This document shows positions 1,846 through 13,700 of a stretch of 45,710 nucleotides of DNA, in pieces. How positions within the stretch are numbered: position 1 is the first letter of the stretch; the number at the start of each line of letters is the position of its first letter. A model generated the notes under the pieces. The model was not told where the DNA came from, did not search any database, and saw only the letters and a list, made by a program, of their open reading frames with translations. The translations under genes and the position numbers were made by a program. The DNA is from Patescibacteria group bacterium (lineage in GTDB: Bacteria > Patescibacteriota > Doudnabacteria > UBA920), in contig JAMDAY010000032.1 in NCBI GenBank assembly GCA_023484515.1, forward strand, positions 1-45,710, read 5' to 3'.

Positions 1846-2955
1846 TTAATTCTCCAATTTTTCCAGCTCTGCTTTGGAAAATCCCACTAATTCCGGCTCA
1901 TGACAAAGCTTTAATCCTGTTTTTTCAAAAACTTTTCCCCTTACTATAGCGGCAACCCCCAAAATCTCTTCGGCAGATGCCTGGCCGGTTTTGTTTAATA
2001 TTACCAGCGGCTGGCCGGGGTTAATGGCCGCGTTGCCAGTCCGGATGTCTTTAAGCCCGCAAATGTCCAGTAAAAATGCGGCGGGGATTTTTAAGCAACC
2101 ACCAGGTTCATGAAAAACCTTCTTTTTCATGTTTCCCAAAATTTCTTCCCCGAATCTATCTTTGATAATGTTTTCCACGCAGCCATAGGTTTCGGCGTCT
2201 AGCACGATATTCTTAAAGAACGATCCTGCGTTGCCATTTGCCGCTTCTGACGGATAAGGAAATTTTTTGTCCCTAATTTTAATTATTGCCTGCCTGATTT
2301 CGGCAGCCGCAGGCTGCCTGCCTGCAAAAAGTTTTGCCAAATCCCGGTAAGATAAATTAGGCTTATCTGTTTTGGAAAGCTTAAATTTTACTGAAAGAAT
2401 TACGTACCTGCCTTTTTCCCGATTGTTAAAAATGCTGCTGCGATAACCGAACTTGCAGTCTTTATTGGCAATTTTCTTAATCTCCCCCGTTAAAATGTCA
2501 AAAGCCGTGACTTGCTCTATGACCTGGCTGGCTTCCTGGCCGTAAGCGCCCGCGTTTTGGACGGCCACGCCCCCCACGTTTCCGGGGATATGGGAAAGGT
2601 TTTCTACGCCCCACAGGTTTTCGTCAACGGTTTTCTGGACAAATCCATCCCAATATTCCCCTGCCGCTACTTGATAAGTAACGCTTCCGTTGCCATCTGA
2701 AATTATCCCCATTCCTTTAAATTCAATCTTTACCGCCAATCCGCCAAAACCTTTGTCGCTCACCAGTATATTGCTTCCGCCGCCAAACACGAAAATTTGT
2801 TCGCCGCGATCCGCCGCAAACTTTATCGCCTCCTTCAAATCATCCAGACTTTCCGCAACGCAAAACCACTTGGCTTTCCCGCCAATTTTAAAAGTGGTAT
2901 ACGGGGCTAAAGATATGCCGGATTTAATTTCCATGGAAAAATTTATTTTTTCCAA
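1846..2955 (-). CDS. murB: UDP-N-acetylmuramate dehydrogenase MurB
   Basis: MurB reduces UDP-GlcNAc-enolpyruvate to UDP-MurNAc with FAD and NADPH in the cytoplasm. Visible motifs are the FAD-binding loop FGGGSNILVSDKGFGG (about residues 58-73), HIPGNVGGVAVQNAGAYGQE (about 122-141), the catalytic-serine motif GNAGSFFKN (about 240-248) and a C-terminal HEPELVG. Length (369 aa) fits the family. The listed start is a TTG at 2955. An ATG at 2934 gives 362 residues and keeps every motif. The TTG start would overlap the upstream AbrB-like gene by 13 nt. Confidence 0.93.
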   Translation of the reverse strand: MEKINFSMEIKSGISLAPYTTFKIGGKAKWFCVAESLDDLKEAIKFAADRGEQIFVFGGGSNILVSDKGFGGLAVKIEFKGMGIISDGNGSVTYQVAAGEYWDGFVQKTVDENLWGVENLSHIPGNVGGVAVQNAGAYGQEASQVIEQVTAFDILTGEIKKIANKDCKFGYRSSIFNNREKGRYVILSVKFKLSKTDKPNLSYRDLAKLFAGRQPAAAEIRQAIIKIRDKKFPYPSEAANGNAGSFFKNIVLDAETYGCVENIIKDRFGEEILGNMKKKVFHEPGGCLKIPAAFLLDICGLKDIRTGNAAINPGQPLVILNKTGQASAEEILGVAAIVRGKVFEKTGLKLCHEPELVGFSKAELEKLEN

Positions 2956-3116
2956 TCCTTGATTAATATTCCTCCGCGGACCTTGGACACTTTAACCTTT
3001 TGCCTTTCCCGCCATTTCAGGTCCGCAACCATTTCTATGGGTAAAGTCACGGCCATGCTGGTTGAGCCTTGCCTGTAAAGCTTGCGGATATTTTTTTGGT
3101 CATTTTTCCTGTTCAT
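2943..3116 (-). CDS. AbrB/SpoVT (MazE-like) DNA-binding protein, 57 aa
   Basis: A short gene from ATG at 3116 to TAA at 2943. The product has the swapped-hairpin pattern KLYRQGSTSMAVTLPIEMVA, followed by a second strand set ending GGILIKDWKK. This is typical of small SpoVT/AbrB-domain proteins in CPR genomes, which act either as antitoxins or as free transcription factors. No toxin gene is next to it. It overlaps or abuts murB and follows murC in the series. The AT-rich repeats just upstream (3112-3165) could be its own binding sites. Confidence 0.8.
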   Translation of the reverse strand: MNRKNDQKNIRKLYRQGSTSMAVTLPIEMVADLKWRERQKVKVSKVRGGILIKDWKK

Positions 3117-3165
3117 ATTTAAATATGAATTTAAATATAAATTTAAATATATACTTATAACAATA
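3112..3165. repeat. AT-rich iterated palindrome ATTTAAAT(A)
   Basis: ATTTAAAT-type palindromic units recur at roughly 11-12 bp spacing between the murC-type gene and the AbrB-like gene. This may be a regulatory target for the AbrB-like protein or a promoter UP-like element. Confidence 0.45.
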
Positions 3166-4743
3166 TCACAAAGCTTCTTTCAGCTCGTACGCCAAACGGT
3201 TGAAAGAACCTACTGCCATAACCACGATTACGTCTCCCGGCTTGGCTTCTTTTTTCAGGATATCCAGGGCTTCTCGCTTGTCATGGACCAGACGGATGTT
3301 TTGCGTTTTGTAGTTAGTTAATTTACCCGCCCCCGCTGAAGCTTTGGCGGACAGGCCAGATGCCCCGTTTGAGCCGATAAATCGGCTGACTACATCTGCG
3401 GAAGTAATTGTATATTCCGAAGACTTTTCCCTGGCAGGATAAATTTCGGAAATTAGCACTTCGTCAGCCGCGCCAAAACTTTTGGCTAGTTCGGGCAGGA
3501 CCGCCTTTGTCCTGCTAAAAGTATGTGGCTCAAAAACGGCCCAAAGGCGTCCTTGGCGTTCCTTGCCCCTTGTCTCCGGTTCTTTGCCGGGATTGCTTGA
3601 GCCTGGAGCCAAAGTGATAATATCTTTCTCCGCATCTTCCGGAAAATACCGAAGCCGAGCCGCTTCCAAGGTTTCCCTGACGGCCGTGGGATGATGCGCG
3701 TAGTCGTCAATAATGGTAATTCCATTTTTTTCGCCGACAACTTCAAACCTTCTTTTTACGCCTTTGTAAGACAATAAATCCAAAGCAATCTGGTCGCGGC
3801 CGAAACCCAACGTCCTTAGCAAAGCAATGGCAGCCAAGGCGTTATAAACGTTCATTTTGCCCGGCAACTGGGTTTGGTAGTCTTCCGTATGCCCAAGCTG
3901 GGACAAAATGTCCTTGGAATGTTTATTTAAAACGCGAAAGTTTGCGTAACCTTCGGCAAACCCGACTTCTTCCGCCTTAAAATCCGCTTCCTCGCCCATA
4001 CCAAAACTGACTGCGGTAATGTTGGTCTTATGGATTAATTTCGGCAAGCGGGGGTCGTCCGCATTGTAAATAATCAAACCGTCTTCCGGCATGTCGGCTA
4101 TGAGCAGTTCAAATTCCCGTTCCATACTTTCTACGTCCGCAAACACGTCAGGATGGTCAAATTCCAAGTTGGTCAAGACCAGGATATCTGGCTTGTAATA
4201 GGAAAATTTTGGGGCAGGGTCGTCGAACTCGGACTTGTATTCATCCCCTTCAAACACGAAATAGTGCCCGTCGCCCCGGTAAAAATTAGTCTCATAATTC
4301 TGCAAAACCGCGCCAACCATAAAAGAGCTGTCGTCAAGGTTTTTAAACAAATGCCCCAGCAGGCCGGCAGTAGTAGACTTTCCGTGAGTTCCGGCAACCA
4401 CCACGCGCAACCGGTCTTCGGCCAAAACCTTAAGCATCTTGGGGAAAGAACAGTGCGGCAATTTGTGTTCGTAGATGTATTTTACTTCCGGATTATTCAA
4501 GTCTTCCCCGGCCGACAAGACGAACAAATCGGCTCGCGATTCCTTAATATGGCTTTCGTTGTAACCCGGAAAGTAGGGAATTTTTTCCCGGTCCAAAACC
4601 CTTTTCGCCGGATCGTATACTTCTTTGGAGTCGCTGCCGGAAACGGTAAAACCGTAGGTTTTGGCTATGCCAGCAGCCGCGGACATGGCAATGCCGCCAA
4701 TGCCCACAAAGTAAATTTTGTCGGTATTGTTTAAATCTATCAT
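3166..4743 (-). CDS. murC: Mur ligase, MurC position with Mpl-like features
   Basis: An ATP-dependent Mur ligase of 525 residues: Rossmann-type N-terminus (IYFVGIGGIAMSA, 10-22), P-loop AGTHGKSTTA (117-126), EGDEY (165-169), LTNLEFDHPDVF (190-201) and DDYAHHPTAVRETL (346-359). MurC adds L-Ala to UDP-MurNAc, and the cluster with murB and murG supports that role. The EGDEYKSEFDD...LEFDHPDVF stretch, however, resembles Mpl (tripeptide-recycling ligase) more than typical MurC. About 30 extra residues (368-398, Gly/Pro/charged) and a second Ala/Gly/Ser-rich insert near 480 are unusual. The start ATG overlaps the stop of the patatin gene by 4 nt. Confidence 0.8.
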   Translation of the reverse strand: MIDLNNTDKIYFVGIGGIAMSAAAGIAKTYGFTVSGSDSKEVYDPAKRVLDREKIPYFPGYNESHIKESRADLFVLSAGEDLNNPEVKYIYEHKLPHCSFPKMLKVLAEDRLRVVVAGTHGKSTTAGLLGHLFKNLDDSSFMVGAVLQNYETNFYRGDGHYFVFEGDEYKSEFDDPAPKFSYYKPDILVLTNLEFDHPDVFADVESMEREFELLIADMPEDGLIIYNADDPRLPKLIHKTNITAVSFGMGEEADFKAEEVGFAEGYANFRVLNKHSKDILSQLGHTEDYQTQLPGKMNVYNALAAIALLRTLGFGRDQIALDLLSYKGVKRRFEVVGEKNGITIIDDYAHHPTAVRETLEAARLRYFPEDAEKDIITLAPGSSNPGKEPETRGKERQGRLWAVFEPHTFSRTKAVLPELAKSFGAADEVLISEIYPAREKSSEYTITSADVVSRFIGSNGASGLSAKASAGAGKLTNYKTQNIRLVHDKREALDILKKEAKPGDVIVVMAVGSFNRLAYELKEAL

Positions 4744-12825: not shown

Positions 12826-12854
12826 ATTATATCATTTAAAGTTGTTTTTGGCCA
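12826..12854 (-). promoter_or_regulatory. Promoter of the polysaccharide operon
   Basis: TGGCCA (12849-12854), 17 bp, TATAAT (12826-12831) on the minus strand. The -10 is perfect and the -35 weak. It is back to back with the rnpB promoter, with 8 bp between the -35 boxes. Confidence 0.55.
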
Positions 12855-12862
12855 GTTGAAAG

Positions 12863-12891
12863 TTGACAAAAGTGCGGTTTTCTGTTAAAAT
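12863..12891 (+). promoter_or_regulatory. rnpB promoter
   Basis: TTGACA (12863-12868), 17 bp, TAAAAT (12886-12891). The first nucleotide of helix P1 of RNase P RNA is at 12898, 7 nt after the -10 box, which is the expected transcription start. Confidence 0.8.
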
Positions 12892-12920
12892 TTTAAGGCT
12901 TTAAGCAAACCGAATAATCG

Positions 12921-13209
12921 CCCCGCTCTTTGGATTGTATGCATTATGTTTATGTTATTAAAAGTTTAAACCACGATTTTGTATATATCGGACAAACGTG
13001 CGATTTAAAGTTAAGGTTTCCTAAACATAATGCTGGTAAAGAGATTGCGACAAAAGCGTATGTTCCTTATAAACTAATCTATTATGAGGCATATGCTAGC
13101 AAAAAAGATGCTCTGGTACGAGAAAAAAAGTTAAAACAGTTTGGCAGTTCTTGGGGACATTTAATGAAACGCATTGCAAATTGTCTTTAATACAATCCAA
13201 AGAGCGGGG
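12921..13209 (+). repeat. 20-bp perfect inverted repeat forming an extended P3 stem
   Basis: 12921-12940 pairs without mismatch to 13190-13209. The outer part (CCCCGCTC / GAGCGGGG) is the native P3, next to P2 and CR-I. The inner part (TTTGGATTGTAT / ATACAATCCAAA) extends it. The 249-nt loop is nothing but the nuclease reading frame: ATG at 12939-12941 and TAA at 13188-13190. Confidence 0.85.
12939..13190 (+). CDS. GIY-YIG nuclease (YhbQ/COG2827-like) inside the RNase P RNA
   Basis: An 83-residue single-domain GIY-YIG endonuclease: YVYVIKS (Tyr5), FVYIG (Tyr16), LKLRFPKHN (Arg26, His30), and the metal-binding Glu62 in ALVREKKLK. All family catalytic positions appear intact. Small proteins of this type are common and scattered in CPR genomes, and GIY-YIG enzymes elsewhere act in homing and repair. 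The frame fills the loop of RNase P helix P3 almost exactly. A TTG at 12930 would add three residues from the stem. No Shine-Dalgarno is seen, and the start lies at the stem end. The only visible promoter is that of rnpB. Confidence 0.85.
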   Translation: MHYVYVIKSLNHDFVYIGQTCDLKLRFPKHNAGKEIATKAYVPYKLIYYEAYASKKDALVREKKLKQFGSSWGHLMKRIANCL

Positions 13210-13642
13210 AGGAAAGTCCGAACACTTATTTGATAGCACCTTAAGAGCTATCAAGGCAGGTAGCGGGTAACGCCCGTCCATATAAGAGGTTGGAGATTAG
13301 AGTTTAGATATTGTAGATTAGCGCAGGTTTTTTGCCGCTTCCAATATCCAACTTCCAATCTCCAACTTCAAAATTGCGAGATGCGAACAGAAACGCCTGA
13401 TTCCGAAAGGATAGGGATCCAATGCAAATTGGATATCCTGGCGGCAACGCCAGGGTGAAACGGCTAAATTCTTACCTGAGTGCAAGGCCAAATTTGGTAG
13501 GCTGCTGGAGCCTGGTGGCAACATCAGGCCAAGATAGATGATTATTTATTCAGTATCGCCTTTTTCTTTACCATCGGTTAAAGATAGCGAAGAAAAAAGC
13601 GATACTGAAAAAACAGAATTCGGCTTATGAGTTTGCTTAAAG

Positions 13643-13686
13643 CTTAAAAAACAGCTTTTTCCTTGGGGAAAAAGCTGTTTTTTAAG
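13643..13686. terminator. Bidirectional terminator between rnpB and the lysozyme-like gene
   Basis: A 20-bp stem (13643-13662 with 13667-13686) with loop TTGG. Each arm has a run of A or T (AAAAAACAGC...GCTGTTTTTT), so it can end transcription in both directions. It begins at the last base of rnpB P1 and ends 15 bp from the stop of the minus-strand gene. Confidence 0.8.
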
Positions 13687-13700
13687 TAATGTGTTTGGCG

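Follow-up and report, generated by a model that had tools for sequence, protein, structure and literature searches.

A GIY-YIG nuclease gene in the P3 helix of a Patescibacteria RNase P RNA, probably carried by a very small mobile element

The RNase P RNA gene (rnpB) found in the window, that is, the whole 45,710-nt stretch of Patescibacteria DNA analysed here, carries an intact GIY-YIG nuclease gene in the loop of helix P3, enclosed by a long perfect stem. To judge from its relatives, the insert appears to come from a widespread Patescibacteria family of minute mobile elements, most of them about 280-320 bp long and each with one GIY-YIG gene. On the genomes compared, insertion into P3 happened more than once, and members of the element family are found well outside rnpB. 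A protein gene within the catalytic RNA of RNase P contradicts the expectation that this single-copy ribozyme admits no mobile genes. Moreover, occupied rnpB loci score under the Rfam cut-off, so that annotation pipelines can miss them.

The interrupted rnpB of the window

The source genome is a draft of 1.30 Mb in 36 contigs (97.8% complete, 0.5% contamination). On the plus strand of the window, positions 12898-13643 hold a complete class A-like rnpB of 746 nt with P1, P2, P4, CR-I and CR-V intact. The 5' strand of P1 (12899-12911) pairs with 13631-13643 (GCTTTAAGCAAAC/GTTTGCTTAAAGC) by sequence and consensus fold; the 5' strand of P4, or CR-I (AGGAAAGTCCGAACA, 13210-13224), adjoins the right arm of the insert; a conserved GTGCAAGGCCAAAT segment is recognised by alignment at 13480-13493; and the CR-V / P4 3' region (ACAGAATTCGGCTTA) is placed by sequence and alignment at 13613-13627. 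A putative sigma-70-like promoter (12863-12891; TTGACA, 17 nt, TAAAAT; 11 of 12 consensus matches in a scan) and an intrinsic terminator with a 20-pair stem (13643-13686) flank the entire unit of rnpB and insert, and folding of the 12898-13643 region gives a z-score of -10.5 against shuffles.

Without its P3 loop, the RNA makes 80 of the 89 family consensus pairs, compared with 79-86 in 13 ordinary relatives. Membership of class A RNase P RNA is indicated by these pairs and by the intact conserved blocks, with a score under the cut-off for Rfam RNaseP_bact_a (RF00010): the locus reaches 53 bits against a cut-off of 100, and the match is displaced to 13421-13643, because the insert disrupts the alignment. 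The RF00010 search of the genome returned a single match, the P3-interrupted gene, and the second rnpB that the original prediction had named as a possible refutation was not found by it. The genome also encodes the RNase P protein subunit rnpA and RNase III. A sugar-transferase gene lies upstream of rnpB here and near rnpB in several relatives (L005, L019, L020, L023, L029), which marks the window gene as the orthologous locus. From single copy and conservation, we infer that the occupied RNA retains RNase P activity.

The insert occupies the stretch from P2 to P4, which in relatives holds an ordinary P3 hairpin of a few tens of nucleotides, and its 289 bp consist of an ORF and a stem. The left arm (12921-12940), which provides the 5' strand of P3, and the right arm (13190-13209), which provides the 3' strand, form 20 of 20 Watson-Crick pairs (CCCCGCTCTTTGGATTGTAT/ATACAATCCAAAGAGCGGGG). 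Between them, the plus-strand ORF (12939-13190) comprises 83 codons and a TAA, with the ATG (12939) at the loop-side end of the left arm; the stop codon (13188-13190) ends on the base with which the right arm begins. Its product matches the Pfam GIY-YIG family PF01541 at E 3e-15 and 56 bits (cut-off 22.6). Residues G18, R26, H30 and E50 are invariant in an alignment with about 13-14 relatives, and the YVY and YIG motifs are conserved along with R26 and E50 among the relatives aligned, one of which has CIG for YIG; a domain with the active-site Tyr, Arg and Glu places the protein in the GIY-YIG superfamily. The pairing and the Pfam match bear out the perfect stem around an intact gene that had been read from the letters alone, the conserved R26, E50 and YIG motif do the same for its catalytic residues, and the rnpB call proved exact to the base for P1, the stem and the ORF.

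Both the protein and the stem carry marks of maintenance. Compared with the nearest intact P3 copy (G017), the ORF has a pS of 0.76, which is saturated, a pN of 0.13 and no coding-region indel; on this comparison, the protein is under purifying selection. Across nine elements (eight in P3, one in an RNA-like locus), two-sided changes occur at 17 of the 20 pairs, so that pairing has been maintained while the sequence diverged.

Other origins for the insert were considered. The Rfam matches at 12850-13700 include no intron family, and a group I or group II intron is rejected on this ground and because a 289-bp ORF and stem leave no room for a ribozyme. Phage origin was likewise rejected: there is one weak phage match (39% identity) and no relative among viral contigs.

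Two further hairpins enlarge the same rnpB. An 84-nt imperfect palindrome (13286-13369; 28-nt arms, 82% complementary), rich in TTGGAGATT-type words and without counterpart in 13 aligned relatives, takes the place of their short P12 tip; it is a second expansion, unrelated to the P3 insert. In L087, the rnpB contains a motif resembling these words, CCAATCTCTCCAATCTGACCAATC, on the downstream side of its P3 insert. At the P19 position, a mostly AT-rich hairpin (13545-13613; 31-nt arms, 84% complementary) stands where relatives have none or another hairpin, as in L021 and L023. In L013, an identical palindrome is present in P3 and in P19, and the P10/P11 regions of L029 and L030 contain related insertions of 50-60 nt (GGCTCCG...GGAGTTCCG...GGAG).

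Recurrence in rnpB and at other genomic sites

Recurrence was assessed in a phylum survey of 380 sampled Patescibacteria genomes (G labels) and among further relatives (L labels), those of an independent collection included. The GIY-YIG subfamily was detected in 244 of the 380 genomes, and the other ORF-bearing P3 loops that the original prediction had proposed to look for turned up in seven of them (G000, G009, G017, G028, G062, G128, G236) and in one further genome beyond the survey, L044. Survey cases were identified by a sequence pattern linking the ORF start to the P4 motif; since a first pattern, AATCGC...GAGGAAAGTCCG, gave six matches of which one was genuine (G128), a stricter one was adopted. 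An eighth pattern match, in G365, has neither a GIY-YIG match nor a CCCC stem there and was taken as chance. In the independent collection, the proteins nearest to that of the window are L043 (73%) and L044 (67%), both P3 residents. L045 has a GIY-YIG gene in the P16/P17 region of rnpB, another helix than P3.

The P3 inserts of G017, G028, G062, G128, G236 and L044 share the junction GGGG|AGGAAAG, and that of G009 reads GGAG|AGGAAAG. Close relatives without the insert, also proposed at the outset, are found in genus g2, where G017 is filled and G001, G018, G020 and G021 have an ordinary P3; this genus therefore holds empty and filled alleles among close relatives, as homing genes do. No rnpB other than the filled one was found in G009, G017 or G028. 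The ORF of G009, a member of the window's family, is frameshifted by two 1-nt deletions, yet its stem still pairs at 19 of 20 positions; with a contig coverage of 4.9, the deletions could be sequencing errors. Searches of four relatives (three of genus g2, one of g7) found no rnpB; the gene is interrupted by a contig end in G019, the apparent match in G010 is false, and G014 and G016 gave no match.

The repeats themselves extend beyond P3. A strong inverted repeat surrounds the ORF in 31 of 64 relatives and is lacking in the other 33, as against 0 of 230 control ORFs. The 64 were selected for their resemblance to the window protein, and GIY-YIG genes at large are therefore not represented by these proportions. 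The repeats measure 19-22 bp and have CCCC.CACC-like outer ends at unrelated sites, the outer bases following a loose consensus of CCCC[GTC]CACC or CCCCGCYCTT. At the non-rnpB locus of L077/L042, stems whose CCCCGCTCTT outer part matches that of the window stem flank a sister ORF. Because of these shared outer stems and the related CCCC-CACC termini at unrelated sites, the window stem most plausibly consists of terminal inverted repeats that belong to the element and act as P3. Of the extended P3 helix originally proposed, the part that stands is that the stem serves as P3; on the same evidence, it does not appear to be an elongated host helix. A chance hairpin or chance ORF in P3 is ruled out by the recurrence, by the lack of repeats around the control ORFs and by selection.

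The L042/L077 locus (2880-3390) resembles an RNA gene: its ends look like a promoter and a terminator, and one of its hairpins holds a GIY-YIG element. Rfam and tRNA searches gave no match there, and the window-type stem is its sole recognised similarity. In one subfamily found in several candidate phyla (L051, L052, L060, L062, L065, L069, L072, L102), a near-constant inverted repeat, ATCCCGTTAGAG(A/C)(T/C), has its arms close to or inside the ORF ends, and the seven members that have it group with L066 in a single clade.

Short target duplications accompany part of the family. At sites outside rnpB and rRNA, duplications of at least 4 bp were found in 10 of 22 cases, against a shuffled mean of 1.4; none of 2000 shuffles reached this number. 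Six of the ten, of 4-10 bp, are well founded: TTTA at L049, where the match extends to 10 bp, TAAA at L099, TGTG at L101, GTTGAC at L096 (TTGA outside the C-run), GCCGGTAGC at L090, and TTTA on either side of an ORF-less hairpin in L103, which lies near the ORF and has the same ends as the elements. The remaining four (TGAA of the ATCCCGTTAGAG type) are discounted, as they may be mere coding ends. No duplication was found at rnpB and 16S sites in any of 11 elements with repeats, the window included, and a transposition step is therefore visible only at other sites.

Beyond rnpB, residents of 16S helix 6 were found in L048, L084 and L088; an element in L093 lies in 16S near the 3' end, probably in helix 44, and one in L089 directly follows the 16S 3' end. 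Nine elements occupy the 5' end of tRNA genes (L063, L064, L078, L079, L086, L090, L095, L097, L100), and elements at such sites often have part of the tRNA duplicated on the far side; a sense tRNA end is close by in 15 of 64 elements, compared with 8 of 223 control ORFs. L078, L086, L095, L100 and L067 are at tRNA-Glu genes, several with a second tRNA 5' part on the far side, and this second copy preserves a complete tRNA downstream. Two proteins of one clade are at pilin genes, and the insert in L049 splits the GFTLVE codons. In the window's own genome (L034, C10), a GIY-YIG ORF lies upstream of an apparent tRNA 5' half; its neighbour is a group I intron (98.5 bits; minus strand, 906-1131), and one tRNA gene possibly holds both a mobile gene and an intron, stacked together.

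The GIY-YIG protein tree is based on few alignment columns; on its supported branches, P3 residence needs at least three origins, with six changes at best. The P3 residents represent at least three protein lineages, and an AU test of all of them as one clade gave p 0.086, which is no outright rejection. The 16S helix 6 clade (three genomes, one site, support 100/99), the pilin clade (two genomes, one site, support 100/97) and the P3 clade of the window's family (f1, support 100/92) show orthologous nucleases that keep to one site, as expected of homing genes.

Possible routes of spread

The explanation that we regard as probable is that a small GIY-YIG mobile element, whose terminal repeats replace P3, spreads by cutting empty rnpB. 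In the RNA, the repeats would pair and stand in for helix P3, allowing the catalytic core to fold, with the ORF held in the P3 loop. The nuclease most likely cuts element-free rnpB alleles near the base of P3, and repair of the cut allele would copy the element in (homing), while a rarer, transposition-like step would move elements to new sites and leave short target duplications. The nuclease is probably translated early, on nascent or precursor rnpB RNA whose right arm has yet to close the stem, since a long stem later has the start codon at its edge; the closed stem would then leave the RNase P core free. Cleavage of the stem by RNase III, suggested at the outset, would release the mRNA and leave a two-piece RNase P RNA; the genome encodes the enzyme, but this step is speculative. 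Mirror-image ends turned into a hairpin stem probably let these elements occupy essential RNA genes without destroying them. A decayed ORF with a kept stem, as in G009, is what the homing cycle would lead one to expect. The core of the original prediction, a mobile GIY-YIG passenger tolerated in P3 of the sole rnpB, is upheld by recurrence, patchiness and single copy.

A transposon of the insertion-sequence type, in which the GIY-YIG protein serves as a transposase on the terminal repeats and each P3 case is an independent entry into a CCCC/GGGG hairpin with no homing, is unlikely, although it would account for repeats with CCCC.CACC-like ends at unrelated sites, for the target duplications at L049, L090, L096, L099 and L101, for the ORF-less L103 hairpin flanked by TTTA, and for the spread of P3 residents over several lineages. 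However, the rnpB and 16S sites are without target duplication, and protein clades faithful to one site across genomes are more homing-like. To our knowledge, transposase-type chemistry by a GIY-YIG protein has no precedent in bacteria, and none of the known transposase chemistries (DDE, HUH, serine, tyrosine) was recognised in the element, whose single ORF is the GIY-YIG gene.

Selection on the protein, the repeated arrival of several lineages at one and the same position and the targeted positions in other RNAs make it improbable that the insert is a passive passenger that entered P3 by chance recombination, its stem kept as P3 must pair and its protein having no role in its own spread, even if the peripheral hairpins P12 and P19 of the window rnpB tolerate other palindromes and the G009 copy is frameshifted. 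Domestication, whereby the host would keep the nuclease in rnpB so as to link its expression with the making or processing of RNase P RNA, had also been suggested at the outset. Two genera of the window's family have an intact gene under selection, and any transcription would occur together with an essential RNA; its patchy presence within one genus, the decayed G009 copy and the sister copies at unrelated places nevertheless leave this option unsupported and very improbable. Finally, an assembly artefact or a dead second rnpB is hardly credible and is refuted for practical purposes, since, draft genome of 36 contigs or not, the same junctions recur in independent assemblies (G017, G009, L044), no other rnpB matches in the genome, the core is conserved and P1 pairs across the insert.

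A broader generalisation can be put forward tentatively, as a serious possibility: these elements may constitute a hitherto undescribed, minimal autonomous class, with one GIY-YIG gene between terminal inverted repeats, that duplicates its target in ordinary DNA, is site-faithful in structural RNA genes and has repeats shaped as a helix of the host RNA, keeping essential RNAs, RNase P RNA included, functional. The suggested rule is that paired ends which replace a host helix enable mobile genes to persist, unspliced, in structured RNAs that are essential. Testable questions opened by this work are whether occupied RNase P RNA is active intact or in pieces, and whether terminal-repeat DNA can be moved in bacteria by a GIY-YIG protein acting alone.

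Relation to known systems

In the literature covered, from which most subscription journals are absent, no insertion of a homing endonuclease gene in rnpB was found for bacteria or CPR, nor any report of terminal repeats of these GIY-YIG elements; within these bounds, the rnpB cases and the paired-ends rule appear new. The closest solved relative by sequence is the UPF0213 / YhbQ-like protein of PDB 1zg2 (BH0048; E 7.6e-5, residues 2-68). That relative is a free-standing protein of unknown function, and the window protein differs in a distinct tail after residue 66.

Homing endonuclease genes (LAGLIDADG or GIY-YIG, free-standing or intron-borne) are likewise small nuclease genes within conserved genes, with site-faithful clades, patchy presence, and intact and decayed copies. 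Unlike them, the present insert is removed by no intron or intein, the host RNA seems to retain it as a hairpin loop, and cutting is here something we infer. Insertion sequences share the terminal repeats, the 4-10 bp duplications at some sites and, in the ORF-less hairpin, something akin to a miniature element; they differ in that the sole protein here is a GIY-YIG nuclease and the structural-RNA sites are without duplications.

Bacterial 23S rRNA intervening sequences, which RNase III excises without religation (PMC11270868), resemble the window insert in their helix-tip position and pairing stem, and their host RNA can function once the loop is removed. The window offers features of this type in its 20-bp stem and encoded RNase III; unlike those sequences as outlined in that source, its insert encodes a GIY-YIG nuclease and sits in rnpB.

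The nearest counterparts are the GIY-YIG genes in insertions of CPR 16S and 23S rRNA genes, which are neither group I nor group II introns and lie mostly at the tops or bases of stem-loops (Tsurumaki et al., 2024; PMC11270868). Its authors placed these genes outside spread by homing because the genes are rare and their sites poorly conserved, and the terms inverted, hairpin and RNase P are absent from its main text. By that description, domain, phylum, a position at the tip or base of a helix in a structural RNA and the lack of an intron are common to both, and L048, L084, L088 and L093 are probably insertions of the same kind. Set against the main text of that paper, the present family differs in occurring also in rnpB, in tRNA genes and in a protein gene, in its paired ends and, at some sites, in its target duplications.
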